From Sabellastarte sp. h YS-2021 (taxonomy: Eukaryota > Annelida > Polychaeta > Sabellida > Sabellidae): a stretch of 64,000 nucleotides of DNA. The position numbers and the translations under genes are program-made. Shown one piece after another: positions 9,601 through 57,796 of the stretch (position 1 is the first letter of the stretch; every line of letters starts with the position of its first letter). The notes under the pieces were generated by a model, which was not told the origin of the DNA, made no database searches, and was given only the letters and a program-made list of their open reading frames with translations. The DNA lies in NCBI GenBank assembly GCA_964017235.1, contig OZ024938.1, positions 12,143,454 through 12,207,453 on the forward strand, written 5' to 3'.

Positions 9601-10040
9601 ACACGTTTACAATATTTGTTGTAAAATATCTGTTCCTGTTGCAATTTGTTACGGGTTAAAAACCCTACTTTGACTGGATTATATTAAGTGGATATTACTG
9701 ATTCTTAAATACTTAAATTCACCTTCATTCAATGTCAGTTTGCTACTAGAATAAAACACAATACCTGTGTTATCACAATATGTTTCATGCGTCTGTCAGA
9801 AGGGTCTATCGTCCGATTCAACGTACTTCCTTCAGGCGGTGGAAATGAGTCATTCTCTAACTTATCAGGGTACCTCGCATACAATTCCTTTTTCAACTGA
9901 TGTACTTTTGACATAAACTCACTTAGACTCAAGTCTGCTCCAGTGGCGTTTATCCTAGAAACAGTTTCCATGTCTTCACACAGTGATGTCTTCATGTTTA
10001 CAAGTAACAGAAGAACTAACCATTTGCCTTCCATGTTCAT
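1..10040 (-). CDS. Cys-loop ligand-gated channel subunit, nicotinic-like (gene 1; 3' end beyond window)
   Basis: This is a four-exon gene: 9,765-10,040, 2,605-2,813, 1,058-1,213 and 1-682. All junctions are GT-AG, and the reading frame is open over 441 codons up to the left edge, where the final part (M4, judged from gene 2) is missing. The product starts with a hydrophobic signal peptide (MNMEGKWLVLLLLVNMKTSLC split by a second Met). An extracellular domain follows, with loop A WTPDIYAEN and a canonical 13-residue Cys-loop (TINVEKFPFDNHN between the two Cys). Then come M1 (LILPCIVLNILSL), M2 (DRLDFVLALILTYFVLIM), M3 and a basic cytoplasmic loop. It should form a pentameric plasma-membrane channel. 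Loop C has no vicinal cysteines and loop B no Trp, so it is non-alpha or orphan. The start at 10,040 matches the gene 2 start; an in-frame Met at 10,085 is an alternative. Intron 1 is 6.95 kb and full of repeats. Family assignment is firm; the ligand is unknown. Confidence 0.88.
683..1057 (-). other. Gene 1 intron 3
   Basis: This is a short intron bounded by GTAATAC (donor) and TTTCTCACAG (acceptor). I see only AT-rich non-coding sequence, with no further element. Confidence 0.8.
1058..1213 (-). CDS. Gene 1 exon 3: Cys-loop exon
   Basis: A 156 nt exon encoding VYPNGYCETGRRMQYTIPC, the Cys-loop and FTHPDNTHSR. The donor is AAG/GTAATA and the acceptor TTGTTTAG. The length and phases equal those of the matching exons of genes 2 and 3. 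In typical nicotinic subunits the loop-B tryptophan (SWTY) would follow the second Cys; here it is replaced by FTHPDN. Confidence 0.9.
1214..2604 (-). other. Gene 1 intron 2
   Basis: AT-rich intron. I recognise no gene, RNA or intact repeat in it. Confidence 0.7.
2605..2813 (-). CDS. Gene 1 exon 2: ligand-domain beta strands and loop A
   Basis: A 209 nt exon between acceptor CTATTTCAG and donor AAG/GTGAGG. It encodes VYVHMKTDRIVKMDI.., the paired tryptophans of the W-x-D-x-x-L-x-W motif (FWQDQNLTW) and loop A WTPDIYAEN. The junction with exon 1 is phase 0 and that with exon 3 is phase 2, as in gene 2. Confidence 0.9.
2890..3240 (+). mobile_element. LINE fragment (CR1/L2-like reverse transcriptase C-terminus)
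   Basis: Plus-strand translation shows VCKLSKFSHVTPFLHKLHWF and then FKYTLITYKAINFT. This is the usual 'ITPVLKSLHWLPV..R..FK..LLTYKAL' region near the C-terminus of CR1/L2/jockey-type LINE proteins. Several in-frame stops are present, for example directly after HWFPI. It is an old 5'-truncated copy inside gene 1 intron 1. Confidence 0.65.
3690..4340 (+). mobile_element. DIRS-type retroelement fossil, Gag-like part
   Basis: This is a decayed stretch of a tyrosine-recombinase retroelement. Short pieces resemble the Gag-like protein of the better-preserved element at 61.2-62.2 kb, including the region with the Cys/His cluster (ICKYFSQGG..). It is broken in many places, so it is clearly old. Flanking DNA to about 5.2 kb may belong to it, but I could not identify other parts. 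Confidence 0.45.
5940..6175. repeat. Degenerate tandem repeat (~30 bp, CTGATATTGACATAACTTTAT type)
   Basis: The motif TGATATTGACATAA..TTTAT(T)ACCA recurs with variations about six to eight times. The part at 6,055-6,165 reappears almost unchanged at 7,365-7,463. Confidence 0.6.
7365..7463. repeat. Second copy of the 6,055-6,165 repeat block
   Basis: The two blocks share AAGTTTACTACCACT, TATTGACATAACTTTATCAC and GCATTACAACTAATATTGGC in the same order, 1.3 kb apart and in direct orientation. Confidence 0.75.
7935..8085 (+). mobile_element. Short fragment similar to the left part of the right-edge DIRS element
   Basis: The segment shares blocks in order with 60,235-60,375: a GACAGA..TTGA.GGGAGAT region, GTGTCAAGGTAGT, AAAAGTATATCCTG and TGAGTAAAGCTT. 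It is therefore either a leftover end of a DIRS-type element or a repeat common to both places. It is an old fragment with no coding part. Confidence 0.4.
8242..8474 (+). mobile_element. tRNA-derived SINE, family 2
   Basis: Begins with a tRNA-like part: A-box-like GGTGCAGTGGTAAC and B-box-like GAGGTTCAAACTTC. It continues with GGTCGGCAGTTTACA and GAAAGCGATGTAAAACCCC and ends in an (AAAT)n tail. Relatives in this window: 11,409-11,590, 12,232-12,330, 23,249-24,013, 24,629-24,770 and 34,830-34,982. Confidence 0.8.
8947..8986. repeat. 20 bp tandem duplication
   Basis: TACTAACAATGAATTATTG is present twice, head to tail. Confidence 0.8.
9765..10040 (-). CDS. Gene 1 exon 1: signal peptide and N-terminal region
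   Basis: A 276 nt exon encoding the signal peptide, the LSEFMSKVHQLKKELYARYP helix-like segment and a PPPEGSTLNRTIDPSDRR linker, ending ..IVITQ before donor CAG/GTATTG. It is the same length as gene 2 exon 1, and the two are clearly homologous. Confidence 0.88.
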
Positions 10041-10600
10041 CTGATATATGTTTCTAATGGTTAAACCTTCATAAATACTTTTCAAAAAAATACCTAGTCA
10101 AACTTTTGCAAAATACAAATTGGCAGGTTGACAAGTTTTTTCTCTCCATATATATTTTACAGCCATAAGTCATACAAATCACATACAGAGGTATTAATTT
10201 TATAGCTATGGTTTAAATCCTCAGAATTATATTTCAACATTACATAGTTCTAACTGCCATCACAAGTAACAAAGTCTAATTCTTTCAAATATTCAAAACA
10301 AAAATATTCCTGGTTAATATCTATTCATCATTGTTCATTTTTAAAGAGTGTTTTTTTTCTTTTTCAGAGCTAATTTTTCTGCAAAATAAGATGACATAAA
10401 TACCCAGCTTATCCATTATATGTACAACATATGTGCACAACCACTGCTAACAACTTCCTTTCTTTTGCCCAGTGATATTATTCTGTACTACACTCTTTCT
10501 GCACAAACCCTCTTGTAGCTGATGCAATTTTGCATGAGTCAGTAATGAAAAGATGCTTTGTTGTGCCCAACTACAAAATTGTCACCAAACAGGAGGTTAA
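10041..10600 (-). promoter_or_regulatory. Proximal upstream region of gene 1, homologous to that of gene 2
   Basis: The sequence matches 38,074-38,605 in the same order and at nearly the same distance from the start codon. Shared blocks include TTATAGCTATG, ACTGCCATCACAAGTA (ACTTCCATCACAAGTA in gene 2), GCACAAACCCT and CATGAGTCA. It probably holds the 5' UTR and promoter, although I cannot place a transcription start or a firm TATA box. Confidence 0.5.
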
Positions 10601-14649: not shown

Positions 14650-17600
14650 GATTTCATTTATAATTTTAACTGCTCCTACGATAACAAAAAATTGAAATAC
14701 AATTGTGATTATCTGCCATAAGTTGAATTTTATACAAATATACATTTGCAAAGTCAATTGTGTAAACATATAGTATTCCCTGCCATGCCTTTTCTTGGAA
14801 GGGTGGAGTCATTTTATTACATATGATACATTTGTACAGAAGCTTACTTGTGAGACTTTCAGAAATGAAAGTATTAGAACTTGGTTCAATTTGTTCCATG
14901 GAATTGTTTGGAAATTCATAGAGCACTCTCTAAACATATACTTATAGGATATCAGGGCTTTCTTTACAGTAAGTATTTCACAATATATATTTCTCTTGTC
15001 AATGACTTTATCATGTATGTATGTTTCATTGAGAACACTATCTACAAACCTGAGAGACTTTACAAAAACGAACCTTGCTTTAACCAGTTATTTATAAAAT
15101 AATGTTTATTGTTGTTTTATCATCCTATCTGCCACTGTGGCCAAGCGGGTAACACACTTGCCTAGGAAATCAGAGGACGTGGATTCAAACCCAGGTTTAG
15201 GCAGATACACTGTGGCTCAGATGACCACTTGAAATGGCTGACCTCTGTTATTGTATCCTATCTCCAGTGGCAGGCTAAAGAACCTCAAGGACGTTGATAA
15301 ATGGTCATCCTTGATCCTCTGTCTTTCGGTTAGGGGATTGTCAGTTACTTGTGCATTGGACTGTACCTGTGCAATCGGATGGGATAAAAAGCGCTCTGTG
15401 TCCTGTAGTATATGGAGATATTGCACTGAGTACAAAAATAAATATACAAGATTGTATTGCATGAATATGAAATTTCCCACAATACCTGACTTAAGAAATT
15501 GTAAAGACTGATAGGAATTTTAACCGGTTTAGATTTGTTAAATGAAAAAATAATGCTCTGATATAAAGTTGGTAGTGTTTTGACAAGGGGAAACTGTTTA
15601 TATTCATTAAAGTTAAAGTACCAAACTAGATTTGTAGGTCCAAAAATGAAAAATGTTAAAGTTAGCTTTCCCCAAAAAGTCCAATCTGCTTTTTCATTCT
15701 GAACTCTATAGATCCACGTAGCTCTGAGTGATTTTACCTTTGATTTAAAGTCAGTTAGATATAATGCGTTATATCTGCTATCAAAGTGTTGCATTTAACT
15801 CTGTATTTAGAGTCCCATATAAATGAATAAAATCTGCTTTCAAACTTTTTTATAAACTCATTTGGAATTTCCAGAAATTGGCTTGGAAAAATAATTTTAG
15901 GAACTATGAGGTGGTTTATGACTGTCAATTTTCCTAATATGGTCAAGTTTCTGATATTCCATGACATCAAATGCTTTTTCAATTTTCTGAAGCTTAGTCC
16001 ACTAATTCATATATTTACACTTGTCACAATCTATACCGATATACATGACAAGGCATCAAACAGGATCTGTGGGCCACCTTGTATTTTCAATGCAGTAATC
16101 TGTCTGCTGGTAGTTGTCTTTACCTAGCCACAGTGCTTCTGTTTTATCTTTGTTTAGTTTTGGTCTTTCTAGGTCACCAAATTTATGTACAACCTCAAGA
16201 AAAGATGTTATCCGCAATTCATGTTTTAAGAAAAGACATCTCACATCTCTTCTGCACACTGACAGAGTTTAAACTCTTTTGAAGTAATATCTATTTTCAC
16301 CACTATACCCTTTGTGCCTGTTTTCCTTTAATTTAATAGCCAAGACTTCCAATATCAATGTAAATAATAAAGCAGACACTGTTTAATCCAATGTTACCCT
16401 GTCTGAAAGCCACACATTGCTCTTTATAATGGTAACAGGATTTTTGTACAGAAGTTTAATACATGTAATGAACTGGTGACCAAAATTTGATTTTTCTAGA
16501 ACTTTGAATAACAAAGGTCATTCCACTGTTTTGAAAGTTTTTTCAAAATCAAGCATTAAAAGGATGCCAGAACTATTGTTTTCTGTAGATGATGAGCAGT
16601 GTCAAGCGATTTGCAAGAATGTCTGCTAGAAGTTTATGACACGTATTTGTCAAACTGATGAGCCTATAGCTTTTCATATTTGATGAGTCGCCTTTCTTTT
16701 AATGAGAGACAGTAGTGATATATTGCTAGACTCTGATAGCTTGTTACTTTTGGAAAGCTTCATTTGAAATAATCAATCAATCAATAGTTTCAATATTTGA
16801 AGAATTGGGATTATTACTGGAGCATAGTTTGGAATTAAATGTTTTCAGTTGATTTAATACTTCAGTATTAGTTGATGCAACACCTCCTTCATCATTAACA
16901 CGTTTGACAACACAATTTGCAGACTGATGTTGCTTTTCTAAATTAAGAAAATAGGATGTACTCTTCTTGCTCTTTTCTAACCACTTTGTCCTTGATTGTA
17001 TATATGCTTCAGTACTATCTTCTTTGTACGAGTCATTTAATTCAGATTTTAGAACGTTTTGTTTTAAAGTTAATTCATAATCATTTTTTTCAAAATTTTG
17101 TTATCTAAGCTTCTATCTCTCGTTCAAGTTGAGATACTTTACAAAGTCTCTTTTTTTTCCTTTTTGTAGAATATGCAATAGAAGTTTCTTTTACTATTAT
17201 TTTAATTTGTACCAGTAGTTCTTGCTTTGATGCGTAGTCTTGATACATGTTAATACTGTGTGATATTTCAGAATTAATCATGACTACATAGCTCTGTTCC
17301 TTTAGTAAAGCATTATGGGGTTTCCAGTACCCTTTACCACATTTGTTTTTTACTAAAATCTAAATTCGCTGCTAAAGCTCTTTGGTCAGGGGCTGGACAA
17401 CAGAGAACTGAACTGTATGTAGCAGCCTCAGCTAAGGATGTAAAAGTTAGAATATAATCAATTCTACTGTTGCACATGTTATCAAATGAGTGTATATAGG
17501 ATTTATGTACCTATAGATATCTATCAAGTTAGTTTTGCCCAAAAATTCAGTGAAAGGTTGCCCATTTTTGTCAACGATACCAGACAAACCATTAGATATA

Positions 17601-18022
17601 TTATAGTAGGTCTTAAAGTCACCCGGCAATTACCATTTTGTTTCTATTAGTATCATGAGTTAGTAACCACTTACTGCATTCTGTGATAAACTGGATTCTT
17701 TGTTGTAAGTTGTTTGATGCATAAACAGAACCAAAACTTTACACTTTGTCATTTGAATTCTTAATGTTTATTAAGATCATAAGGCCTATGATCATCCTCG
17801 TATACATTAATTATGCAGATTAGATGAAATTAGGACACCAACCCCTCTTCCATGAAAAGATTTAGAACAAGAAATATAAAACTTTACCAACTCATGAAAG
17901 TCCCTTTCAATGTCAACCAATATCTCTTTTGTTACATTAGTTTCTTGTAAACACACAATATCAAAGTCTTGCTTTTTAAGCCAATTAGTTAAAATTTGCC
18001 TCTTTTTTGTCACATAGACCAT
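14650..18022 (-). pseudogene. LINE ORF2: endonuclease-reverse transcriptase, broken
   Basis: In order on the minus strand: endonuclease start (17,807-18,022, NWLKKQDFDIVCLQETNVTK, with the catalytic Glu of LQET); a GDFK piece where GDFN is usual, followed by GIVDKNGQPFTEFLG (17,450-17,630); SRIDYIL (near 17,450), then PDQRAL where SDHRAL is expected, so the catalytic His is lost; KSTSYFLNLEKQH (near 16,950), the start of the reverse transcriptase; KLNKDKTEALWLG (near 16,150); RNLTILGKLTVINHLIVPKI (near 15,930); and VKSLRATWIYRVQNEKADW (near 15,720). Below the SINE, TPPFQEKAWQGILY (near 14,800) continues the C-terminus. Where YADD should stand (near 16,260) the frame reads CAEE followed by a stop. 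It cannot make an active enzyme. Confidence 0.8.
15131..15448 (+). mobile_element. tRNA-derived SINE, family 1, inserted in the LINE
   Basis: tRNA-like head GGCCAAGCGGGTAACACAC with B-box GGATTCAAACCC. The body has CCAGTGGCAGGCTAAAGAAC and GACGTTGATAAATGGTCATC, and the end is AGATATTGCACTGAGTAC plus an AT-rich tail. It interrupts the LINE ORF2 reading and so is younger than the LINE. Sisters: 33,690-34,005 (minus), 55,169-55,452 and 57,543-57,796. Confidence 0.85.
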
Positions 18023-18383
18023 GTATGTTTATTTTTGTTTTTTTTTATTTTTTGGGTTTTTTTTTTAACTTTTCATTGTAAAATATTAACAATGCAATAT
18101 CTGAATTAATATCAGTAAAATCTTGTGTGACTATTTGCCTCCTTTTGATGTTTTTTTAAGTTTTGCACCTTTTTCTTTCTCTGGGGTTTTTGAAGACTTC
18201 CTCTTAGATTTCTCATTTTGATCAGCAAGCATGTCTTTGATATTTATAATCATTTCATGTTTCGGTAGAGGTTGACTTTGTTGCTTCTGTTTGCAAGGCA
18301 GGTTGACAGAGCTCTTGTGAAACAGTGAACTGGTTCATGCTTGCTTTTTATCACATTTCTTTTGAGGGATTAACTTTGGTCTC

Positions 18384-18530
18384 ACAATTCTAATTCTAAT
18401 AGTATTTTTATAGCACTTAATTTCCATCTAAAGACAGACTCTACGTGCACCAAACAGAAAAAGCAGAAAACTATAAACATTAACCTGAGACATAGCAAAG
18501 GTCAGCACCACGGAGAGAAACTGGGGAGTC
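18384..18530 (-). mobile_element. 3' end of a CR1/L2-like LINE
   Basis: The reverse complement reads CCGTGGTGCTGACC, GTCTCAGGTTAA, TAGAGTCTGTC, then AATTAAGTGCTATAAA and the octamer-like tail AGAATTAGAATT. The same order is seen at 49,415-49,541 at the end of the plus-strand CR1-like fragment, so this is a short 3' fragment of that family. It sits between the two ORFs of the L1/Tx1-like LINE. The extra DNA up to about 18,900 may be part of it. Confidence 0.7.
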
Positions 18531-19036: not shown

Positions 19037-20173
19037 TCACTGAGTCAACAGTAGGCGTCCCAAAATAAGCTGGAGTACTTGTTGGAGGGCTATGCTAGAC
19101 CTTACATCCCTAATGGCTATCAGCAGGATAACAAGCTTATTTTGGCCTGGGAAGTAGTTTGAGTCTCTCTTTTCAGCTTCGGCTGAAGAAAAACCATTTG
19201 TGTAGCCTCTGTCCAAACATGAACCTTCTGTGTCAAGCAATCTCTGTTTGAATTCAGGTACCTGTGCAGCTTTAGCATCATTGATGTCATTCATTATGCT
19301 TAAACTTTGAGACTCCCATTCTACTGTAGTATCTGCTGATATTGCTTTACTGAGCCATTTCGCTTTACCAGCATGAACTGCATTCCTTATTACTTCAGCC
19401 AGCATCTCCTTTCTCACTTCCATGGCCTTCTTCCATTGGTATGCATGATCTGTAAATCAAAAGGTCTCACCCAGAACATAAATGTCACACATGTAAAAGT
19501 TTGAAAGTGCATTATGATGGGATCTAAAAGGTATTACCTCTTGGGTAGCTCTGGCTTTACATGTTTCATCACCAGCCTGATGCCCTTGTATGTTGCAGAC
19601 TAAGCAGTGTGGCTTGAACTAGCCATCATGAAATGCTTTGCATTTAATGTCACTGATACAGGCTGTTCTTGGCAAAAGTGGCCACACTGGGGACTTTTAC
19701 AAAGACAAAACAATCACCATTTTTACGTGGGTCAGATTACCATTTGTATCTCAAATTTTTCCATGCTTTATGTCAGACAACATTGCCACCATTTTCCTGA
19801 AGGAAAATTTCAATCTCAGAGTTTGCAACTGAAAGCTGCAAATCTTTAATTGTAATTCTCTCACATTCTTTTTGGAAATGAATCAATAATGCAGGATTTT
19901 TGTCATATATCTGGTACAATTTTCTCTGTATTACCACCTCTCTTTTCAGCAGAAGTTTTGCGCTATTCTCAAATGATTTTAAGTATATATCGCCAAATTC
20001 CATTTATATTTTGAACTCCATATAATGCAGCATTGCCTACAACAAGTCCTGCAGCAATGCATACCTCACAGGACATCAGGGTATGTTCTTTGTTTTGATT
20101 CTTGATTAAAAACTGGCCCAACTCTTAAACTGTCTTGAATATCTACACACTGTGTTGAAGTAACAGCAGCCAT
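19037..20173 (-). pseudogene. LINE ORF1 with CCHC zinc knuckle and NADAR-like domain
   Basis: Minus strand. The start MAAVTSTQCVDIQDSL (20,173) is followed after a frame change by GLVVGNAALYGVQNINGIWR, then LLLKREVVIQRKLYQIYDKNP, the order of Tx1-type ORF1 proteins. A zinc knuckle HCLVCNIQGHQAGDETC (C-x2-C-x4-H-x6-C, near 19,580) follows. After it comes a domain with ALSNFYMCDIYVLGETF, DHAYQWKKA, VIRNAVHAGKAKWLSK, QVPEFKQRLLDTEG and YFPGQNKLVILLIAIRDV (19,540-19,100). These match the NADAR/YbiA pattern (SNFY, EHAYQ..KA, W..IM, PEFK..LL.T, PG.N.LG..LM..R). A stop lies inside (ETF-stop-FTDHAYQ), with further frame changes at 19,690-19,830. NADAR proteins act on ADP-ribose-type N-glycosidic bonds; a role in this element is unknown. 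Confidence 0.72.
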
Positions 20174-23248: not shown

Positions 23249-24013
23249 GGGGGCCAGTTGGTACAGTGGTAACTCACTTGCTTCCCACCTATGAGATCAG
23301 GGTTTGTAAAGCTGGTAGTTGGTTGCTGTCGGTTGGTTGCTGATGGCCTGGGGCCGATTTCACTAAGGGACTTAAGCCTGATTTTGGGCTTAAGTTTAAG
23401 ACTTTGGTCTTAAATTCTGCCAAAAATGTGCTAAGTCAGCGGGCCTAGACTTAGTGGATTTCACAAAGGGGCTAAGTCCATGGATTTGCTAAGTCAGTGG
23501 ACTTAACTTTTAAGTCTGCGAGGTAGTGGGCTTAAATTTTGTAAACAAGACTTAAATATGGCCGCCATAACCTTTTCTCCACTTCAAAATTTGAAATGGC
23601 TGTAAATAAAGTATAATTATACAGAACACCTTACTGAAGTAGTCTTTTGGAAGTTTATATGATGTAACAAGGTTTTCTATTTCAAAACAGCACTTATCCT
23701 CAGATAAAATGCATCAAATGAAGGATATAAAAGGTCACATGACACAGAAAACCACTGTGGTTATTTGATAAGCTTGGACTTAGCTAAGTCACCTTTGTGA
23801 AATCCATTTTAAGTCCCAGAAGTAGTTAAGACCAAAGTCTTAGATTTAAGTCCCTGACTTAGCCAATAAAGGGACTTAGTTTAAGTCCTTTAGTGAAATC
23901 GGCCCCAGCAGTTTACAGTACAGAAGCTTGACCAACTGTTTTAGTACTAGTGTCCTCTGCCTTTCCAACTTCCCATCACAATATAACCTATAAGGCACTA
24001 TGTGAGGTAAAAC
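23249..24013 (+). mobile_element. SINE family 2 split by a DNA element
   Basis: The head (GGGGCCAGTTGGTACAGTGG to GGTTGCTGATGGC) stops at 23,347 and the body resumes at 23,908 with AGTTTACAGTACAGAAGC. Together they give the family-2 SINE order. The 557 bp element between them is therefore a later insertion. Confidence 0.8.
23349..23907. mobile_element. Inverted-repeat DNA element (MITE A, copy 1)
   Basis: The ends are exact inverted repeats: TGGGGCCGATTTCACTAA against TTAGTGAAATCGGCCCCA with one base difference beyond. The subterminal region is packed with CTTAAG/AAGTC motifs and there is no coding capacity. Copy 2 (36,958-37,501) is inverted and shares the interior, for example AAACCACTGTGGTTAT and GATAAAATGCATCAAATGAA. 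A non-autonomous DNA transposon is likely; superfamily not set, target duplication unclear. Confidence 0.8.
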
Positions 24014-30849: not shown

Positions 30850-31618
30850 TTAATATATTTTGAAAAACACCATAGCAACAATCACGTGTGAGATACACAC
30901 AACTACAAAGAAGGCAAGGTTCAGAACTTCACCCAAAACCTTCCACTTGAAACCTTCCTTCATCAACTTCTCTTCTGTCTCAATGTCGTCAAGCTGAATA
31001 GCCTTTTCATTGGTCAAAACATGATTCTCTGACCCCGCATTCTGTATTACTCTGCTATCACTCTTCATTCCCTTTCTTTTTCTGTAGGCTGCATACCTTC
31101 TCAAAAGACAACAGTAGCGACTCAAAAATTTGGAGAGATACCTTGGCATTTCCTTTTTCTTGGCCCTGCAGTGCTCATGCATTTCAATCAGTACCATTGA
31201 CATCCCATAGGTACTTGCAACCACAGCAGTGCTCAGAATGATATATAGGCCCAGCAGGGGTATCTGGGTTCCCGATGGAGGACTCGATTCGACCACAATC
31301 ATAATCAGTACAAAGTAGGTCAGGATTAGGGCACGTACAAAATCAAGTCGGTCAGTGGTTTTGGTCGGTAAAGTAAACACAGTTAGGCTGAGAATATTTA
31401 GAACAATACAGGGCAGGATTAGAACTGTGAAATGAAAGGTGGCCTGTCTCCTCAGCATCAGGGTGAAATCAAATACACCTGGGTCACCCTCCTTTGAGGA
31501 GATCACAGAGATGCTGACATCGGAAAGTCCCCATTCCAGATGCTCTGCCCTGTGGTTATATACATACTCCTTTGCAACTTCGCTACTTAGGCCCTCAAGG
31601 GCAGAAATGAAAGCAAGT
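30850..31618 (-). CDS. Gene 2 exon 4: end of ligand domain, M1-M4, stop
   Basis: 769 nt including the stop. The acceptor TTTCTCACAG joins ..NSHSR to LAFISALEGL. It encodes all four membrane segments; the C-terminus is VAMVFFKIY. An in-frame ATG at 31,752 lies in the intron and is not the start. Confidence 0.93.
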
Positions 31619-34600
31619 CTGTGAGAAATAGAAGAAAAAGAGAGAGTTATTATGAGGAATAGGTCATCTAATGAAAAAGTTTGTGATGATGTCCACATAT
31701 TTGTAGTTATTTGTCCTGCAGGTAACCAGGATGGGAATTTTACCTCACTCAATGTTAAAACAACTTGATAGAATCATGCATTAATAATTGTGCATGCACG
31801 AAATACTGATAGTCCAATTTTGTTTAATAAATAAAAATGTATGTTTCACAAATGCAAAGTAGACAATGATGTCATGTCGTGAAGTTAATCTTGAATTTAA
31901 CCTAGTATTAGGTATATTTTAATGGCCAAGTAAGTGTACAATATTAGAAAATAATGGATTGCCTACAAGGTTCCAAACACCGAGTCAACAATCTATTATT
32001 TTATAATATTGGGCACTTATGAGGCTATTAACCTAATTAAATTACACCCATTCTTTAATTTGTAATTTTAGAGATGTTTCTAATATCCTTACTTTTCATT
32101 AATATATTTCTGGTGTGTATTTTGGGGTTTTTTGGTCATCATTTTAGTTGAAATAAATTTAGAATATGTTTCTTGATAAATGTGTAAAAAAGGCTTCTAT
32201 ACATGGCCAAAATCACCGAGCAGAACAACTGCCCATTAGTGAAAAATATTGGACACTTTTAACAAAAGAATATCTCTTGGATGAAATTTAACTTTAGTTT
32301 TAATCATTAACAAACAAATACTACAGAATCTAGACAAACTGCCCCCAAACATTGTGGTGATCTAGAAGTTTTAGATGGTCGTAGATATTTTTACCCAGTC
32401 ACCAATATATATTCATGGAGAAAGAAAAATCCCCTTGAATAGCCATTGCTTGACGTTTCCTAGTCTCAAGTACAATGATTGATGTGACATGTGGGATATA
32501 GATCACTCAATTTAATGCAATATAGAGACATTACAGCCAATATAGATTTAGATTTATTTTTTGTTTTACGTCGTTTTCAATAGGCAGGGTCATATTGCAA
32601 CATATTGTTAGTAACTACAAAAGTTTCCAACATGAAGTGCCCGGGCCGAGATTAGAACCGGCAACCTCAGAGGTTGAGGGTGAGCATTTTAGATGCTCAT
32701 CAAAATATATTCAACAGGTTCAAATGCTTTTTGCAAGCAAGCATGAGTTTCAAATGCTTGAATGCTAATAGTCTTACTGTTATTTATAAAAGTGGAAGAG
32801 TGATGTTACCTTGAGTGAGAGTTATCCGGATGAGTGAACACCAGGGAACAGTTGTGTCTGTCAAATGGAAACTGCTTCACATTGATAGTACATGGAATCG
32901 TGTACTGCATCCGCCTTTTAGTTATACACCAACCATCTGGGTAGACTTCCACTTCTTTAAGGTCCCTAAATAATTACAATATAACAATGATATTTATTCT
33001 GCATTTACTTTTCTGGTTTGCCTTTGTTGTAGCAACAAAAGACTACATACCAGCTTTCAGGAAGTCTCATCTGCAAATTTTTGCAATTATTCTTTGCAAG
33101 AGATATCTACGGTGCAACAATAAAAGAAAATTCAAAAACATATGAAGGGGGATAAAAGGATGTTAAAGAATTCAAAACCAGGATTACAATGACTGGTACA
33201 TAAAAAATGGCCTGGCACTGAAACTCCTTTCACTTTTGACAATTTTTAAGAATTATCCTGTTCTTACTGTCTGCTTCTTTTCTTACATCTATATTATTTT
33301 TCTTCTAAAGATAACATGTGTGGTGACTCATAAAAATAATCTAAATATAGCTACATTGAAACATAGCTTTCCAAATGCAGTTCAAAAAGGTAAACTATAT
33401 CCAAAATATCAACCAAAACAAACTGCTATCGCTTAGCTTTCACTATGTTATCTAGCTGTAAAAAATATCAACAATAAAGGAAAAATTTAACCAAAATTAC
33501 TGACTATTGTGACCAATAGCAAATAATGACACCAATTTTTTTGCTATTGATGTTTCTGGTAAGATAAAATGTGTTTGCGAACGTTAATAGCTATAACTAA
33601 AAAAATCTGGCTTTCTCAAATTTTATAGATGGCACCAACAAATTTAGCTGATTCAGTTTAAATATATATATATATATATTATAGTGGCATATTGTATTGT
33701 ATTTATACTCAGCACAACATCTCCAGGTTTCTACAGGAATCAAAGCGCTGTATGACCCATATGACTACACATATAGCCCAACTTTCAAGTTACTGACATT
33801 CCCCTAAGTGAAAGACAGAGGCTCAAGGATGACCATTTATCAACGTCCTTGGGGTTCTTTAGCCTGCCACTGGGGACAGGATCCATTGACAGAGGACCGC
33901 CACTTTAAGTGGTGGTCTGAGCCACTATGTATCTGCCTGTACCTGGGTTTGAACCCACGTGCTTTGTGTTCCTAGGTGACTATGTTAACCGCTAGGCCAT
34001 AGTGAAAATATAATATAGAATAATGCTAACTTAATCAGGCCCAGGATTTTAATGGGCTTATATGTCCCTTTAAACCTTTTGAACATTCACAATTTCAGCA
34101 AAATACTTCACTCTTGATTTTGAACACTTTTATGTTATTTCAAATGGCTTCAATAAAAACTGCACACTTTTGTAATAGACAAATAAATCTCTGAGTAGCT
34201 TCATTGTAATTTATTTCAAAGTTCTCAAGAAACATTTACGCTCAAAATTACAAATTTCACAAACACAAAAAAATTCATCTTCAATGCTGCCTTTTACGAC
34301 ACGAAGTACAATGTCAATTGGACTTCTATGAAAAAGCAGCCTGCTTCTCAATGGGAGAAAACCAAATCTTACTTGTGGAAGAAGTATCCTTTATGTCCTA
34401 GACAATAACAGTTTGAGATAACTTTATTAATTTAATGGTTTGTTTAAATTTCACAAAAAAAATCAATGTTTAGGTTTAGATGGGATTTACTCACCACAAC
34501 CATACTGTATAAGATCAGGAATTTTTTATTTCATAACATTCAGATCAAAACAATTACCATTGACTGTGACCTGCTCTGATTGTAGCATTTCAGCAATATT

Positions 34601-37600
34601 TAATACAAACCTGACCAGTTTGTAATGTTATTACAAAGCTGAATCAAAGCTATCAATTTGATTGTAGTTTTTAACCACTAGCTGGGAAATAAACTGCTTC
34701 TCAAGCAAAACTCTGATTAGGTATTCTGTCAATACCCACTGCCTTCTTGATTTTTATATTTCATATTTATTCAGTGTTTGATGTCACATTTAGTGAGTAC
34801 TGGTTATATTGTGAGTTGTTGGAAGGGTAGATCAGACAGGACAAACAGAAGGTCAAGGTTCTGTACTGTAAACTGCCAACCAATGGCAACCAACTACAAG
34901 CTTTCCAACATAAGGGCAAGCCGGGATTTGATCTCAGAGGCTGGAGACAAGTGTGCTACCACTGTGCCACCGTGACCCCCTTTGCATTTCATAATTGCCA
35001 TATAAAACTCTATAATATAACTTTCATATTTAGCTGTTAGATTATTTCCATTACATTCCATGTCATTAATTGTTAGTTCAATGGACATAGAGAAAATTTC
35101 CAAATGTTTTAAAACGTGGTTTATAAAGTTTATAGAGAAAATTCATTCAGCATAGTGTGTACATTTCTTTAAGGAATCTTGTAATGTAACCAGAAATCAA
35201 AAACAAACTACCCCTTTACAGTGTTACAAGTGTAGTTTTCTGTGCTAGGTATAAATAAGTCCATTCAATAAAATTATTAGCAGTCTTTTAGAAACTCAAT
35301 AAATACATCAGAGAAACTGTTCTTAATCTTATCAATAACTGACCTTTTGTTTATCACACCATAAGCTGGAATGTAAAATGTTCAATTTGGCTTATATTAG
35401 AATTAAAATCTCCGGCTAACAGAATGAAGTTACTATACACAATGCTGACCTAATAGTTTTCTCTTCAAGGATGTTTTCTGCATATATATCCGGAGTCCAG
35501 ACATGTCCTGCCTTCAGCATGATGGTGTGCAACCCTGCATCATCTTGCCAAGTCAGGTTTTTGTCTTGCCAGCAAAAGAGTTCATCCAGAACCAAATCAA
35601 GAGACTGCTCCTTAATGTCCATCTTAATGATGCGATCACTTCTCATGTAAATGTACACCTGTAATACATGACTGCTGTTTACACACAGGTCACTTTCAAA
35701 CAAATTGACCAAACGGATAAATACAAACATATTCTTAAAATGATTTATTTATTTACCTATTTTTATTTGTTATTCTTATGCACAGTGACAATACAATAAA
35801 TGCTACAATTTAGTGACATATATGCATAGATAAATATATGTGTATGTGTTGAATATATTGATTCTATCTACACTCCTATCGATAATCAGGTGAACATTTT
35901 GTGTGATACATTCACTGGGTTTTTGAAACACATACAAATGTCTATGTTCAAATGGTAGAATAGCCTCTAAGAATGATGATATTTCCTTGTCACATTAATC
36001 AGGGTTCATATATTATTGACTACAATTGAACTAACATATGATTGTAAATAAATGTGTGAAATGTAAAGTTTATAAATGTAAAGTGTATAAAGTATGTAAG
36101 GTCTTCAAAATTTTATACCAGATACATGGGAATTTAATATACTTACAGTGTTAGAGACCATCAACCTTACTAATCATTTTGACAATTGTGAAGAGGTTAA
36201 TATAACTGAGGCACAGCATAGGTTACATGATTTAATGAACTTAGAATGGAGTGCCAAAATTCCATCTAAACCAAAATTACGGTCATATTCCTTTTTTAAA
36301 CATAGTATATCTGCTGAACCATATGTAACCTCAAATCTATCAAAAGGTAAACGATCGCTGATAAGTCAGTTGAGAGTAGGAATTTTGCCCCTTGAGATTG
36401 AGTCAGGTCGGTATGTAAGGAAAAAGTTAACTGAAAGACTGTGTAAATTGTGTCATTGTAAATACATTTCATATGTTTATGTCCAAACTTGAATAACATA
36501 AGATCATATTATTTTTGCAAATTAAACATAGATATTGGTAAAAATTAAATGGAGCAATTTATTGAAGTTTTGTGTCATTCAGATTTGAAAACAACGGCTT
36601 CATTTATTTACGAAATGTGGAATGCAAGAAAGAACATAATTTTCCAAAAATAGATGCTGAAAGGTTATATTTCCAACACTTGTTAAATATGTTGTATTTA
36701 TAGTGACTAATAAGCCCAACAGGGCTGGGTATATATGATTATATATGTACTATTATATTGTTACTGGTATTATACTTGTCACTTAAATAAATGAATAAAT
36801 AAATAATAACCTAAGCAATAGTTTGAATGAACATGTAAAAATATGATATCTAGTAATTACAAGGAACTGGATCAATGAATTGTTGTGGCTGAAATAAAAC
36901 CCTTGATACCATAATATACTACAACAGCAAATTTAAATGATTGGAATTCTATATCAGGGGCCGATTTCACAAACGGACTTAGACTTAGCCAAGTTTTTGG
37001 CTAAGTGAAGGACTTAAATGTAAGACTTTGGTCTTAACTAGGTCTAGGACTTAAATGGATTTCACAAAGGGTGACTTAGCTAGGTCTAAGCTTATCACAT
37101 AACCACAGTGGTTTCCTGTGTCACTATATCCTTCATTTGATGCATTTTATCTAAGGATAAGTGCTGTTTTGCAGTGGAAAACCTTTTTACCACATGTAAA
37201 CTTCCCAAAGACTACTTTAGTGATGTGTCCTGTATAATTCTAGTTCATTTACAGCCATTTCAAATTTTCAAATGGAGAAAAGTTTATGGCAGCCATATTT
37301 CAGTCCTCTTTACAAATTTAAGCCCACTACCTACCAGACTTAAAGTTAAGTCCACTGACTTAGCAATTTCATGGACTTAGCTGCTTTGTGAAATCCGCGG
37401 AGTCTAAGACCACAGACTTTGCATTGTGTTGACAAAATTTAAGCCAAAAGTCTCAAATTTAAGTCTAAGTCTGCACTTAAGTCCCTTTGTGAAATCGACC
37501 ACTGAACTATATATTTCTTTTATTTCAAAAGGTAAAAGGAAATGTCATGTTGTACAAAATTTCTTTACCCTGTGTGTGATCGGCCTTGGGCCTCCCGAAG

Positions 37601-38073
37601 AGGAGATGGTGGAAATTCAAAGTACATAGCTCACTGAGAGAGCTAATTTATAGCAATGAAGTGCTAAAGTATTAAGACATTACACGCCCAAAGAAGCAGG
37701 ACAAAAGTTGTCTTTGGTGGATAATAACTTGTGTTACAGGTATACTTTAATTAATTTCTATGCAATCCAAGTTTGCTACAAAAAGTAAACACAATACCTG
37801 CGTTATTACAACATGTTTCTTGAGACCATCCGAAGAGTCTATCGTCTGATTCAATGTACTTCCTTCAGGGGGTGGATATGAATCACCATCTAACTCCTTG
37901 GGATGTATTCCATACAGTTCCTTTTTCACCTGATGTACTCTGGACATGAACTCACTTAGATTCAAGTTTGGCAAGGTGATATTTATTTCAGGAATAGATT
38001 CCATCTCTTCACATACTGATGTATTAATGTTTACAAACAATAAAATAAATAACCCTTTGCTTTCCATTTTCAT
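30850..38073 (-). CDS. Cys-loop ligand-gated channel subunit, nicotinic-like (gene 2, complete)
   Basis: Four exons (37,798-38,073; 35,450-35,658; 32,810-32,965; 30,850-31,618) with GT-AG junctions give 469 residues. Signal peptide about 1-21; extracellular domain to about 270 with W122/W129, loop A WTPD at 146-149 and Cys-loop C187-C201 (13 residues between). M1 about 275-297, M2 305-324, M3 334-358, a basic loop of about 80 residues and M4 441-465. The M2 start reads TDRLDFVRA: Asp at -1', Arg at 0', Asp at 2' (D306), Leu at 9' (L313) and Glu at 20' (E324). Most nicotinic subunits have GEK and Thr/Ser at 2'. No vicinal Cys in loop C (SSKEGDPGVFDF), no loop-B Trp (FTHPDN), and Glu at the loop-A Tyr place. 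It is probably a cation-channel subunit not gated by acetylcholine in the usual way, by inference. Confidence 0.92.
31619..32809 (-). other. Gene 2 intron 3
   Basis: AT-rich intron with one minus-strand SINE at 32,548-32,690, otherwise unremarkable. Confidence 0.7.
32548..32690 (-). mobile_element. tRNA-derived SINE in gene 2 intron 3
   Basis: The reverse complement carries GGTTGCCGGTTCTAATCTC (B-box) and ends AACGACGTAAAACAAAAAAT. The ACGTAAAAC end is shared with the other SINEs; the body differs from families 1-3. Confidence 0.6.
32810..32965 (-). CDS. Gene 2 exon 3: Cys-loop exon
   Basis: 156 nt, encoding VYPDGWCITKRRMQYTIPC, TINVKQFPFDRHN and CSLVFTHPDNSHS. Donor AAG/GTAACA, acceptor ATTATTTAG. 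Confidence 0.92.
33690..34005 (-). mobile_element. tRNA-derived SINE, family 1, near full length
   Basis: On the plus strand, ATACTCAGCACAACATCTCC (tail end), then GATGACCATTTATCAACGTC and CTGCCACTGGGGACAGGAT, ending in the tRNA-like GGGTTTGAACCC and GTTAACCGCTAGGCC. The body shows the same order as 15,131-15,448 in reverse. Confidence 0.85.
34830..34982 (-). mobile_element. SINE family 2, minus strand
   Basis: The plus strand shows CTGTAAACTGCCAACCAATG, AACTACAAGCTTTCC, the B-box complement and GCTACCACTGTGCCACCGTG, the mirror of the 24,629 copy. Confidence 0.75.
35450..35658 (-). CDS. Gene 2 exon 2: ligand-domain strands and loop A
   Basis: 209 nt between acceptor GTATTACAG and donor TAG/GTCAGC. 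Encodes VYIYMRSDRIIKMDIKEQS, FCWQDKNLTWQDD and WTPDIYAENILEEKTIR. Confidence 0.92.
36100..36808 (+). mobile_element. LINE 3' end with C-terminal coding piece
   Basis: An open stretch (36,148-36,492) encodes KPKLRSYSFFKHSISAEPYV, then KGKRSLISQLRVGILPLEIE and RLCKLC. It matches the familiar C-terminal region of invertebrate LINE proteins (K..Y..FK....EPYV..., RS..AQLR.GILPL.IETGR, C..C). Downstream come the hairpin AGCCCAACAGGGCT (about 36,714) and an (AAAT)n tail, a normal LINE end. The frame breaks after HCKYI, so the copy is 5'-truncated and dead. Clade not set. Confidence 0.75.
36958..37501. mobile_element. Inverted-repeat DNA element (MITE A, copy 2)
   Basis: Begins GGGGCCGATTTCACAAACGG and ends GTCCCTTTGTGAAATCGACC. 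The interior is the reverse complement of copy 1 at 23.35-23.9 kb (shared ATAACCACAGTGGTTTCCTG and TTCATTTGATGCATTTTATC). It lies inside gene 2 intron 1. The ends have drifted more than those of copy 1. Confidence 0.8.
37798..38073 (-). CDS. Gene 2 exon 1: signal peptide and N-terminal region
   Basis: 276 nt. MKMESKGLFILLFVNINTSV is the signal peptide; LNLSEFMSRVHQVKKELYGI follows, with PPPEGSTLNQTIDSSDG and the end VVITQ before CAG/GTATTG. The start is the first Met in frame and matches gene 1. Confidence 0.92.
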
Positions 38074-38605
38074 GTATGATGGATCATTCTTATGATCAAA
38101 CTTTTATAATTATATTTTTTAAAAATATCTAGTGATATAAACAAAAATGCAATGTTGAGTGACATTTTTTTCCATGTATATTTTTACAATCATAAAACAA
38201 CAATCTTGTTTGTTTATTGAGAGTTATTCTAGTTATTCTTATAGCTATGCTCTAAGCCTAAAGAATTATATTCCCATATTGCATAGTAATAACTTCCATC
38301 ACAAGTAGCAAAATTTTTTTTTTCAAATAATCAAAAATTTCTGTTTATTACGTATACAACATTGTGGATTTTACAAGAATTTCTTGTGGATATAGTTAGG
38401 TTTTCTTTAAAATTTAGATGACACAAATATCCAGCCTATATGTTATATTCATAACATTATCCAGTTTCATCTGCTTGTCCAAAGCTTTGATTCTGTACCA
38501 CACTTGTTTTGCACAAACCCTGTTTATAAATGATGTAATCTTTCATGAGTCACTGATATAAGGATGATTCATTGTGCCCAACCACAAAATCGCCACCATA
38601 TCTGG
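38074..38605 (-). promoter_or_regulatory. Proximal upstream region of gene 2, homologous to that of gene 1
   Basis: Counterpart of 10,041-10,600, with shared blocks at nearly the same spacing from the ATG. Probably 5' UTR plus promoter. Confidence 0.5.
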
Positions 38606-46192: not shown

Positions 46193-46967
46193 TCAATACA
46201 CATCGAAAACCACCATAGCAACAATCACATGTGAGACACACACCAGTAAAAAGAAGGCAAAGTTCAGAACTTCACCAAAAACCTTCCACTTGAAACCTTC
46301 CTTAATCAAATTCTCTTCTGTCTCAACACTGGCCAGCTGAACAGCATCTTCATCAGTCATAACATAGCTTTCTGACCTTGAATCCCTGTTCTGTATCACT
46401 CTGTGGTCACATTTGTTTTTTCTCTTTCGTTTACAGTATACTGCATACCTTCTAGAAAGGCAGCAGAAGTGATTTAAAAACTGAGAGAGACACCTTGGCA
46501 TTGGTTTTTTCTTAGCATGGCAGTGCTCGTGCATTTCAATCAGTATCATGGACAAGCCAAAGGTACAAGCGACAATTGCAGTGCTCAGAATAATGTATAA
46601 CCCCAGCAGAGGTATCTGGGTGCCTGATGGAGGACTGGAATCCACCACAATCATAATTAGTACAAAGTAGGTCAGGATTAGAGAAAGTACAAAATCAAGA
46701 CGGTTGGTATTCTTGGTGGGTAAAGTAAACACGGTCAAGCTAAGAATATTTAGAACAATACAAGGCAGAATGAGAACTGTGAAATAGAAAGTGGCCTGTC
46801 TCCTTAGCAAGAGGGTGTAGCTGAATACACCAGACTCAGCCCCCCTGGTAGATATCATAGAGATGTTGACATCAGAAAGTCCCCATTCCAGATGTTCCGA
46901 TGTTTTTTTCATATGAGCCTTCATGATTTCACTTGGCAGGTCTTCAATCACAACAGGGAAATCAATC
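46193..46967 (-). CDS. Gene 3 exon 4
   Basis: 775 nt with stop. Acceptor TTTCTAACAG; starts R-IDFPVVIEDLPSEI. Six bases longer than the gene 2 exon, with length changes in the cytoplasmic loop and pre-M1 region. All four membrane segments are intact. Confidence 0.9.
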
Positions 46968-49900
46968 CTGTTAGAAATACAAAAAAAAAACAGAATGGAC
47001 TTTTAACATGAGGACCTTCTGAAAAAAGATATTATGGTACTATCTGCCAAAATGTCACTATAGAACCCACTAAAAAGACAGGATGTTCTCATATGCTTTA
47101 AAGAAACGAAAACAAAAACTCATAATTCAAACTTCTGGAAATGTGGGATAATTGCTATTTTTAATGGCCCAAGAACAAACTTGAGGAGAGTGGCAATTTT
47201 ACTCATTGATAATGATCCTATTTCAGTAGCTAATCAATGTGGGAATTTTATGTTTCTCAGAATTACAACTTGATGGAATCATGATCTTGTTGTCTTTGTA
47301 TGCACGAAATACTAATTGTTCATTTTTTTTACAAAAATCCACTGTTCACTTTACACATGTCAGTCAAACATTTTGGTCAGCCTATCCACATTTGTCATAC
47401 AAACTTGCTTACGTCTCCTCTGTTATCACCTGACTATGCCAATGGACCAATGAGGATTCAATCTGTTTATGTAGAGTTAAGCCTTAGGGTATTACCGATG
47501 ACTGAGAGTTGATCCAAATTGGATGATTGGATTACAGTATTCATTGAAGCTGGTAAAATATTCAACAGATTCAAGTAACCATAAGCACAACACTTGAATG
47601 GTCTTCAAATTAGTCATGACGATTATATGTCAGTATTACCTTGAGTGAGTGTTGCCTGAGTGAGTAAAAAGCAGGGAACAGTTGTGGTTGTCAAATGGAA
47701 ACTTCTCCACATTGACAGTACATGGAATTGTGTACTTCATCCGCCGTTCAGTTTCACAAATACCGGGTTGGTAGACCTTCACCAGTTTAAGGTCCCTAAA
47801 TAATTACATAATATGATAATGGTATTTATTGCGTGTTTACATCCTGTTTACTCCAGTTGGAAAAGCAAAACACAACATGTCCTGGGGTCACCAGTTTTCA
47901 AGATCCCATGTAATCTACATACTTTTTGGCACTTAACCTGTGCAAATGATATCAAACACAAAACAAAAGCAAAAATTCTAAAACGTGTGATAAAGGGACT
48001 GATAAAGGTTGTTACCAACTTGGAGAACTGGGATCTCCATATTTGTTTTACCTACACTGAAAAAACAGTCATAATGTGTACTAACTTATCACTGAGTTAT
48101 TGAGTGACATGAACAATTTATCTGGATCTGATAAAAATGAAAGTCAAAACATTTTACATTATCATTTGTATATAATTATTTAATGGTAGCCAAATTTTAA
48201 GCCATTCTGAGATTATTTTTCATGTTTTGGGCAATAATTTGGACTTTTGTGCACAAAATAATATATTGTATATGACTCCAACATTTTGGAATCAATTTGG
48301 CAGACTTAACTTAATTTTATGTCTGGCAATAACATCATTTTGCTTTTGGTTTATATCATATGTATACCAGGAAAACTTCCCAAATGATGTAAAGCTAATA
48401 TATCATGAATGATGGTGATGATATAATACGAGTGCTAACACAAACTTCAACTTGGTTATTTAGCTATAGAAAGTAATATTAACCATAAAAAACTTGCTGG
48501 CCACTGTGACCCATGCTAATATTACTCACATTTTGCTGCTGATGCTTCTACAAACAAAATAAATGTTTTAACTGTCATTATTGTAGGATGTGACAATCCA
48601 GCTGCGTTCTATATCTTCCCTTCCTTAAATAGTTTATTTTCGCTGATTTTGTGTAAACATATAACCTAACACTGTATTCAGCCGAAATGCACAACTCGGT
48701 CAAACGAATACACTGCATCCACAGACCTCACTGAGCTTTCTTTTATTCTGAATCCACAGTTTTTCTGTATCACTTTCACTAGCTGAATCCACAACTTATC
48801 ACTTTTTTATCTGTAAGGCTTGTTTTGTTCACGTCAGGGATTTAAAGCGACTCAGAGGGTATCTTACACATGAAGCTGCTCTCTTGGCTGCAAATGCCTT
48901 GGTTGGAAGTCGTCTTGACTATTGTAATTCCCTATTCAGAAGTCTCTCTGCTCTTGACCTTCGTAGGCTCCAATGTGCTCAGAACAGTCTAGCTAGAATT
49001 GTGGTGAATACCACCAAGTACTCACATATCACTCCGGTAAGAAAGAGTCTTCATTGGTTGCCTATCATGCATCGCTCTGTTTTTAAGACAGCCCTATTGG
49101 TGTACAAGTTTCTACATAGTGGCCATCCAAAATACTTCAAACCTTTCCTTAAACCAAGACACAGTGTGTACAGAACGAGTAGAAGTCAATCTGAGGGTGT
49201 TCTGCTCGACGTCCCACATTTTGCATCAATATATAAGTCAAAAAGGCATTTTGGCCTTAGTTTTGCATAAAATGCTCCGATGATTTGGAATGATCTCCCT
49301 GATGATGTACGCTCAGCTAAATCTCTCTCCTCATTCAGGAAGAAGTTGAAAACTTACCTCTTTGAAAAAGCCTACCCACCCTAGTTTTTTCCTCAGTTTT
49401 CATTTCATCTTTCTCCGTGGTGCCGACCCCTGCAATGTCTCTGATTTAACAATTACGATCTCTGATTTTTGGCTTTACGCGTCTTAGAGTCTGTCAATTG
49501 ATAGAGATTAAGCGCTATAAAAGTACTATTAGAATTAGAATTTACAAGTGAGTTCTGAAGAGACATATTCACTTTAAAAGGGTTAATGGCTTTATATCAA
49601 CTTCACACATACCCAGCATCCAAAAATCTTTGAGGTATGATAATTCCCCTCTTACTCAAGATCACAAAATTAGTTATTACCTTTGACAAAATGTGATTAT
49701 CTAATTGCACTGATAATTATTCTAACATAAACAAGAGACTAAAGGACTTCAGTTTAAAAACAACTTGAAAACAAACACCCAAACATCATTGATATATGTA
49801 AATCACACTTTGCAAACATCAATTTAGAAGTTGTCACCCTTATGAAACAAACATAACATGATGACAAAGAATTATCTGCAGTTGCTTTTTAATAAACTAA

Positions 49901-53986: not shown

Positions 53987-55168
53987 TTTAACACAAGAAG
54001 TGTGTCTGGGATACAGGAGGGCTACTGAGAGGCCGATGAGGGAGGGGCATTGGAGTCACACACAGGGGGACGGGATGAGAAGACACAAACTGGGACAGTT
54101 GCAGACAGGTGCTCATTGTGGAATGGTTAAAAGACGGTGATTATTTAAATCAACCCAGACCAATGACCCTACTATTGTGTTAACTCACCATTATTTTTGC
54201 ATAATGCAAAGCTAACATTAAATTATTTTCTAGCAATTTTGTGTGAGCTATTATGGTCCCGTTGGCGGCTTGTTAAGGACTAAAGGGTGTTTCCCAGTCA
54301 TCCTTAGCATAGCGCATTCGATGCTGAATTGGTTTCACATCTTTCATGCATATTAATTAATTCACTGGGTACATTTATAAGTCTTTCTTAATTCTGCATG
54401 CAATCCTTGGTAAAAAAATGCTTCCTGGAAAGACTGTCTCCTAGGAAATCCCTCCTGTGTATTTTTATCCCCAGAAGATTCCTCACAACAAATAAAAAAT
54501 GGCAATTTAATTTAGAATTCTGTAATCTATTAAATCCTTTAGATTTTCACAACATGACTTAAGTTTACAATACCCCCAATGTAACTGATTGCCATGGCGA
54601 CCACCCTTTCAATGAAAGAGTGGTTTTGGTGGCTTAGAGTGTGCTTTGTTAAAATATAATCAACATTAAATGGAGTGTTTTAGTGGCTCGTAGGGTACAA
54701 AGAAGTTTTTGGCTCAAATAAAATAAAAAAATGCAGGGAAGAGATATTTATACTTCTAGAAATGTATGGGTTATTTTTTTGAAAATTAAGTGATTGAAAT
54801 AATGGTGGTGGATTTCTATAGTACATAATCCTATCAAATAACATAACTGTACTATTATAACCACTTTGTTAAGAAAGGCCCACAGTGTTACTAAGTCCTC
54901 ACTTGTAAGTCCAAATTGCCACTGACCCCAGGCGAGGTAAATGTTTTGGCAGTGATCCCTTGTTGATATCCAACATGCTCTTATGTTTTAGAAATACATG
55001 TATCGCTCAGTCCTCAAAATAAGAAGAAAAACAGAGAGAAAAAAAGTAAATTCACAAAGTAGAGCAGGGTTCCAACTCTACATCGAAATCATATACAAGC
55101 ACAGAGTTTCTGTCAGTGAAATCAAAGAAAGCATCCAGTATATTGCCTGGAAGCTCAGAACAATATCT
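53987..55168. other. Non-coding DNA
   Basis: No gene or element recognised. Confidence 0.5.
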
Positions 55169-55452
55169 GCCACTGTGTCCTAGCGGGTAACACACTTGTC
55201 TAGGAACTCAGAGGACGTGGGTTCCATCCCAGGTACAGGCAGAGACATAGTGGCTCGGATGACCACTTAAAATGGCGGTCCTCTGTCATTGAGTCCTATC
55301 CCCAGTGGCAGGTTAAAGAACATCAAGGATGTTGATAAATGGTCATCCTTGAGTCTCTATCTTCCGGTTAGGGGAATGTCAGTTACTTGTGAGTTGGTGC
55401 TGTACCTGTACAGATATTGGGCTGAGTATAAATACATAATAATAATAATAAC
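55169..55452 (+). mobile_element. tRNA-derived SINE, family 1, full length
   Basis: Head GCCACTGTGTCCTAGCGGGT and B-box GGGTTCCATCCC, body CCCAGTGGCAGGTTAAAGAA and GTTGATAAATGGTCATCCTT, end GGGCTGAGTATAAATAC with an (ATA)n tail. Confidence 0.85.
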
Positions 55453-57542: not shown

Positions 57543-57796
57543 CATAGTGGCTCGAATGACCACTTAAAATGGCGGTCCTCTGTCATTGGGTCCTATCCCC
57601 AGTGGCAGGTTAAAGAACCTCAAGGACGTTGATAAATGTTCATCCTTGAGCCTCTATCTTCCAGTTAGGGGAATGTCAGTTACTTGTGGGTTGGGGCTGT
57701 ACGTGTACAGTCTCATTGGTTCAATAGTGCTTTGACTCCTGTAGTATATGGAGATATTGCGCTGAGTATAAATACATAATAATCATAATAATAATA
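57543..57796 (+). mobile_element. tRNA-derived SINE, family 1, 5'-truncated
   Basis: Starts in the body at ACATAGTGGCTCGAATGACC and runs through CCAGTGGCAGGTTAAAGAAC to GCGCTGAGTATAAATACATA and an AT-rich tail. The tRNA-like head is missing. Confidence 0.85.

Follow-up and report, generated by a model that had tools for sequence, protein, structure and literature searches.

Among described retrotransposons, the closest counterparts of the element reported here are several Tx1 families of long interspersed nuclear elements (LINEs) of Crassostrea gigas, in which a Repbase query led to the description of a divergent, apparent NADAR domain of the YbiA family in the first open reading frame (ORF1); the same work records a NADAR domain in one Ectocarpus Gypsy lineage and suggests the processing of RNA intermediates as its role (PMC12477816, Genome Biology 2025). 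The fusion of a LINE ORF1 with a NADAR domain has been in print since 2025, and the decayed LINE that we analyse here, on the minus strand of a 64-kb stretch (64,000 nt; hereafter, the window) of contig OZ024938.1 from the annelid Sabellastarte sp. h YS-2021, is a further, dead example.

NADAR proteins hydrolyse guanine-linked ADP-ribose on DNA (PMC11543638), and among the hydrolase families tested they alone reversed guanosine ADP-ribosylation on RNA (PMC11833690). Vertebrates are said to lack them (PMC11543638), and what they do in animals and other eukaryotes has been called unclear (PMC11125620), the nematode protein SNA-3 aside. A LINE that keeps a NADAR domain would offer a genetic handle on NADAR function in animals. 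In those portions of the NADAR and retrotransposon literature that were available to us, we found no report of LINE NADARs besides PMC12477816, and two papers on mollusc LINEs, PMC11203168 and PMC10294476, contain no occurrence of NADAR.

A NADAR domain in ORF1 of a dead LINE

The initial annotation, made from the letters alone, had proposed an ORF1 of a Tx1/L1-like LINE with a NADAR domain behind a zinc knuckle. All of the motifs that it quoted, namely, HCLVCNIQGHQAGDETC, ALSNFYMCDIYV, DHAYQWKKA, KAKWLSK, PEFKQRLLDTEG, YFPGQNKL and IRD, were found on the minus strand in one shared frame. The NADAR stretch (19037-19540) is interrupted by a single in-frame stop and shows no frameshift. The open 139-residue piece of this stretch (19037-19456) matched the Pfam NADAR family PF08719 with E 2.7e-10 and 41.2 bits, and the read-through protein, that is, the sequence with X in place of the single internal stop, did so with E 5.4e-13 and 50 bits, both above the gathering score of 35.1 bits. 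The PHROG family phrog_1017 (function unknown) matched over residues 2-108 with E 5.3e-18. A profile built from 29 phage and prokaryote NADARs, which matched positions 19109-19555, gave the real stretch 80.9 bits compared with 7.2 for the best of 1000 shuffles, ruling out a chance match of the motifs. No second NADAR copy was found in the window, the best other matches reaching E 0.40 and E 6; for the 29-NADAR profile searched against all six frames, the sole other match listed was the one at E 6, with a negative score.

In prokaryote genomes, 80 candidate stretches were checked and 23 confirmed as relatives; 22 of these, 23-29% identical to the NADAR of the window, were aligned, and the remaining one, L024, was left out for its short open frame. 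When compared with solved structures, the open piece by itself yielded no match at E <= 1 and the read-through protein only a weak one to E. coli YbiA (E 0.018), whereas a profile of the 23-row alignment matched YbiA with E 1.1e-37 and the Phytophthora NADAR 8bau with E 1.7e-22, so that a clear match to a solved structure at the sequence level required the profile.

Structure prediction agrees with the sequence searches. The AlphaFold2 model of the domain, for which the input alignment comprised the window sequence and the 22 bacterial and archaeal relatives, has a mean predicted local distance difference test score (pLDDT) of 84.3 and a predicted template modelling score (pTM) of 0.76. Only 2 of the 11 matches listed from the PDB had E <= 0.001: E. 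coli YbiA (2b3w; E 8.5e-6, template modelling (TM) scores 0.70/0.70, 26% identity by fold alignment) and the Phytophthora NADAR solved with ADP-ribose (8bau; E 1.6e-4, TM scores 0.69/0.62, 20% identity by fold alignment). In a library of viral structures, 39 of 110 matches reached the same threshold, comprising 22 phage and giant-virus proteins that bear the name NADAR, 13 nameless ones and 4 otherwise named, among the latter the polymerase protein of Ingleside virus, an RNA virus. The domain is thus predicted to adopt a YbiA-like NADAR fold, a result that leans on the sequence match, since the alignment behind the model itself contained 22 NADARs.

The LINE to which this domain belongs spans approximately 20173-15437 on the minus strand (Table 1). 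Upstream of the domain, an N-terminal part of ORF1 can be read by hand from the ATG; it matched no library model in Pfam and nothing in the PDB. A Cys/His motif directly precedes the NADAR domain in the same frame. It was initially called a CCHC knuckle, but its final spacing departs from the standard C-X2-C-X4-H-X4-C, and no library model matched it; we refer to it as knuckle-like. Downstream of 19037, ORF1 probably continues as far as 18134, where a basic tail would end, and this part is interrupted by a fragment of another LINE.

Table 1. Features of the NADAR-bearing LINE and of the repeats within and next to it
Feature	Position	Strand	Basis
N-terminal part of ORF1, starting with the ATG at 20173	19541..20173	-	reading frames traced by hand
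Knuckle-like Cys/His motif, C-X2-C-X4-H-X6-C, sharing the frame of the NADAR domain	19559..19606	-	by eye
NADAR (YbiA-like) domain of ORF1 and C-terminal extension	19037..19540	-	Pfam, NCBIfam, PHROG, profile, model
131-bp piece resembling the 3' end of a different LINE, at the expected ORF1 C-terminal part	18386..18516	-	repeat comparison
Lysine-rich open stretch, putative basic C-terminal tail of ORF1	18134..18334	-	inference
ORF2 endonuclease, LINE-1-like apurinic/apyrimidinic endonuclease (APE) type, broken	17483..18004	-	Pfam and PDB
ORF2 reverse transcriptase pieces, broken	16101..16698	-	PDB 8sxt
SINE-like repeat (SINE, short interspersed nuclear element) at the end of recognisable ORF2	15126..15436		repeat comparison

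The second open reading frame, ORF2, follows on the same strand. The Exo_endo_phos model of Pfam matched 17807-18028 with E 3.6e-5 and 24.1 bits, just under its cut-off of 24.5, and the best solved matches of the endonuclease were 2v0s (molecule 'LR1'; E 7.5e-4) and 1vyb (LINE-1 ORF2 protein; E 0.0013). The reverse transcriptase pieces matched the LINE-1 ORF2 protein 8sxt with E 5.5e-6; Pfam RVT_1 matches to these pieces, at E 0.018 and 0.033, were both under the cut-off, and frames 2 and 3 of the whole ORF2 gave no LINE match in the PDB. The NADAR domain is part of the LINE ORF1: it shares the frame of the Cys/His motif that precedes it, and the ORF2 pieces that come after it lie on its strand. 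These observations rule out a separately inserted NADAR gene, and the fact that several Tx1 families of C. gigas appear to have this fusion too (PMC12477816) likewise supports the original view that the domain belongs to the element. We regard the identity of the parts, namely, a LINE whose ORF1 has a Cys/His motif followed by a YbiA-like NADAR domain, as practically certain. The initial observation is thereby confirmed and its structural interpretation supported; its function is, as it was there, a proposal.

Judging from the sequence comparisons, the element is most likely of the L1/Tx1 type. The best solved relatives of both its endonuclease and its reverse transcriptase are LINE-1 proteins; to our knowledge, few non-L1 LINEs have solved structures, so this assignment is likely rather than shown. 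The matches favour the L1-like part of the initial classification, and membership of the Tx1 clade itself is putative. The copy is dead, as had been stated: ORF1 upstream of the NADAR domain, read by hand, contains about three frame changes plus stops, and ORF2 is broken throughout.

The ligand pocket and candidate functions

In the Phytophthora NADAR, the ligand is contacted by Glu43, Lys50, Arg79, Asp86, Trp89, Arg93, Glu125, Asp130 and Trp133 (PMC11543638). The numbering of the 8bau chain equals that of the paper plus 2, and with this shift all nine contacts fit. We mapped each Phytophthora number to a residue of the read-through protein of the window using several alignments. The phosphate-binding Lys50 is kept as K38 and Trp89 as W75, as is, in the form of K61, Lys75, a residue near the site that does not contact the ligand.

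The distal-ribose residue Glu43 is replaced by Asp (D31), a substitution that the initial annotation had already pointed out in this copy, and Arg79 by Lys (K65). Other observations weigh against a guanine ADP-ribose hydrolase. Asp86 is replaced by Thr72, and Arg93 by Ser79. The alignments disagree in the region from the catalytic acid Glu125 through Trp133: two of them place E105, D110 and Y113 there, preceded by a deletion of six or seven residues, another keeps D110 and sets Glu125 opposite a gap, and the alignment of the 22 relatives places R111, N115 and S118. The model is poor in the same region, with pLDDT < 50 at residues 113-126 and 128-132. Finally, the NCBIfam model TIGR02464 matched the read-through protein with E 1e-13 and 51.8 bits, under its curated cut-off of 73.7. 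In the E. coli C7 NADAR, replacement of the Glu43 counterpart, Glu88, by Ala had a minor effect in vitro and by Gln a large one, and Glu88 mutants failed to rescue cells (PMC11543638), so that Asp at this position may be either tolerated or harmful. As read from the alignments, then, the pocket appears to be partly kept, with matches at Lys38 and Trp75, an Asp for the distal-ribose Glu, and an ambiguous catalytic acid. As the copy is dead, the losses may postdate its insertion, and one dead copy cannot place them before or after that event.

The ORF1 proteins of LINE-1 bind their own RNA. For the living relatives of the element, we infer an activity, targets and a benefit along the following lines: the NADAR domain would be a hydrolase that removes ADP-ribose from guanine bases, the rest of ORF1 would hold this hydrolase on the RNA or complementary DNA (cDNA) of the element, and removal of the modification would either leave a template that reverse transcriptase can still read or reverse ADP-ribosylation that the host directs at the element. 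Such catalytic removal of ADP-ribose from guanine in the RNA or cDNA of the element is the leading, though tentative, proposal, to which we give slightly less than even odds.

A guanine N2 ADP-ribosylating activity has been reported in six edible clams, with the enzyme CARP-1 cloned from Meretrix lamarckii; in the accessible portions of that report, no natural role is given for the clam enzyme (PMC11209040). That NADARs erase CARP-1-type marks was assumed without experiment in PMC11543638. A more specific version of the catalytic proposal, in which the NADAR-bearing ORF1 of Tx1 LINEs is a counter-defence that erases CARP-1-type guanine ADP-ribosylation on LINE RNA, single-stranded DNA or cDNA, is, in our estimate, quite improbable. 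The existence of CARP-1 in clams makes a host-element conflict a testable idea, and pairing the LINE NADAR with clam guanine ADP-ribosylation would allow two open questions to be tested together. If true, the counter-defence would mean that animals and the retrotransposons in their genomes are engaged in an arms race over ADP-ribosylation, a parallel to DarT1-NADAR in bacteria. We encountered no proposal of such a conflict between molluscs and LINEs in the parts of the NADAR and CARP-1 literature at our disposal.

The departures at Glu43, Arg79, Asp86 and Arg93 in the window copy, together with the doubt at Glu125, could instead point to a domain that has lost its activity and serves as a non-catalytic module, binding ADP-ribose, NAD-capped RNA or nucleic acid, or aiding the binding of RNA by the ORF1 protein. 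However, the equivalents of Lys50 and Trp89 are kept, and the departures sit in a decayed copy. In nematodes in which the conserved residues of SNA-3 domain 2 were mutated, fertility was normal at 16 C and at 20 C and was all but lost at 25 C, an effect for which the authors consider disturbed folding a possible cause (PMC9303266). On balance, we regard a non-catalytic module as doubtful, although it deserves serious consideration.

Another possibility is a catalytic NADAR that contributes little to retrotransposition and acts on a housekeeping substrate, for instance free ADP-ribose derivatives or reactive riboflavin intermediates. Bacterial and plant NADARs hydrolyse riboflavin intermediates (PMC11543638), and the best NCBIfam match of the NADAR stretch is TIGR02464, the model of riboflavin intermediates N-glycosidase. 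This match, however, falls short of the cut-off for the read-through protein, as noted above, and also for the open piece (35 bits), and the apparent occurrence of the domain in several C. gigas Tx1 families (PMC12477816) speaks for its use by the element, making a housekeeping function unlikely.

The distribution of stops bears on whether the host has taken over the NADAR stretch as an exon after insertion. The stretch is the least broken part of the element: over 501 nt, its best frame contains 1 stop, compared with 4-12 in all 31 overlapping downstream segments and 6-7 in all 3 upstream ones; in the window as a whole, 69 of 2540 stretches of this size have 1 or no stop, and the low count may be due to chance. 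In addition, the NADAR core is flanked by two splice-like motifs on the minus strand, AG at 19451 (acceptor-like) and GTAAG at 19105 (donor-like), and comparable pairs occur at 0.9% of 12712 test positions. Exon capture is nevertheless extremely improbable: the stop and splice patterns were noticed post hoc and are uncorrected, frameshifts elsewhere in the element raise the stop counts of any single frame, some of the downstream segments include the piece of the other LINE, splicing at the acceptor would exclude the initial strands of the fold, and the splice phases, compared by hand, differ.

Nested repeats and other features of the window

The 131-bp piece that lies where the C-terminal part of ORF1 is expected has relatives at 49412-49542 (76% identity over 132 columns) and 52438-52503 (77% over 66). 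When its two flanks were searched for exact matches, a 7-mer was all that they shared, and no target-site duplication was found. On the plus strand, 48752-49542 is an open piece that resembles, by eye, the C-terminal part of ORF2 of another LINE, with no convincing Pfam match; the 3' end following it is also present inside the NADAR LINE. The 3' end of the NADAR LINE itself is obscured by the SINE-like repeat, other copies of which, at 33702-34004, 55164-55412 and 57538-57772, show 80-87% identity. By eye only, this repeat has a tRNA-like head.

Elsewhere on the minus strand of the window are pieces of neurotransmitter-gated ion channel genes (30850-31770, 35416-35748 and 46193-47002; Pfam Neur_chan_memb with E 3e-8 and 6.5e-10, Neur_chan_LBD with E 7.1e-9). 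Positions 9735-10097 and 37747-38103 are alike by eye, neither having a Pfam match. A 360-residue open frame at 61141-62220 (plus strand) has a Cys/His-rich end and no convincing Pfam match, and is perhaps a mobile-element protein. An inverted repeat at 23348-23908, with 28-nt outer arms that are 96% complementary and nested inner arms, resembles a miniature inverted-repeat element. Rfam yielded no match in the window.

Comparison with known NADARs

Beyond the prokaryote genomes, the searches for NADARs like that of the window covered phages, plasmids and viral contigs. With the open piece as the query, one phage record matched at E <= 0.01, and with the read-through protein, 297 of 50,697 did so at E <= 1; among the best 40 of these 297, the NADAR of Vibrio phage 2.275.O (L001) had the lowest E, 5e-11. 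There was no match at E <= 0.1 among 72,556 plasmid records, and in viral contigs, 0 of 12 and 0 of 80 candidate stretches were confirmed as relatives. The Vibrio phage protein, a member of phrog_1017, and the NADAR of a Staphylococcus Kayvirus (L004) are, respectively, 31% and 26% identical to the window sequence and have its length pattern in common (PHROG membership was checked for the Vibrio phage protein alone). Both differ from the LINE domain in being stand-alone phage proteins. In our tree, the window sequence groups with these two proteins with support 94/86. We do not claim a phage origin of the domain: the branch of the window sequence is very long (2.67), and the tree was built without animal NADARs.

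E. coli YbiA (2b3w) and the Phytophthora NADAR (8bau) share with the LINE domain the fold and many core positions, but both are stand-alone domains, at the low identities given above. Nematode SNA-3 resembles the element in being an animal protein that combines NADAR domains with the handling of RNA; unlike the LINE ORF1, it is a host trans-splicing factor with three NADAR domains and not part of a mobile element (PMC9303266). The Ectocarpus Gypsy lineage, like the LINE, is a retrotransposon with a YbiA-family NADAR, for which the authors suggest possible horizontal acquisition, its matches being almost only bacterial (PMC12477816). In the Tx1 LINEs of C. gigas, from which the element analysed here differs in being a dead copy, the likeness, drawn from their description only, is an apparent YbiA-family NADAR within the ORF1 protein of a Tx1 LINE (PMC12477816).
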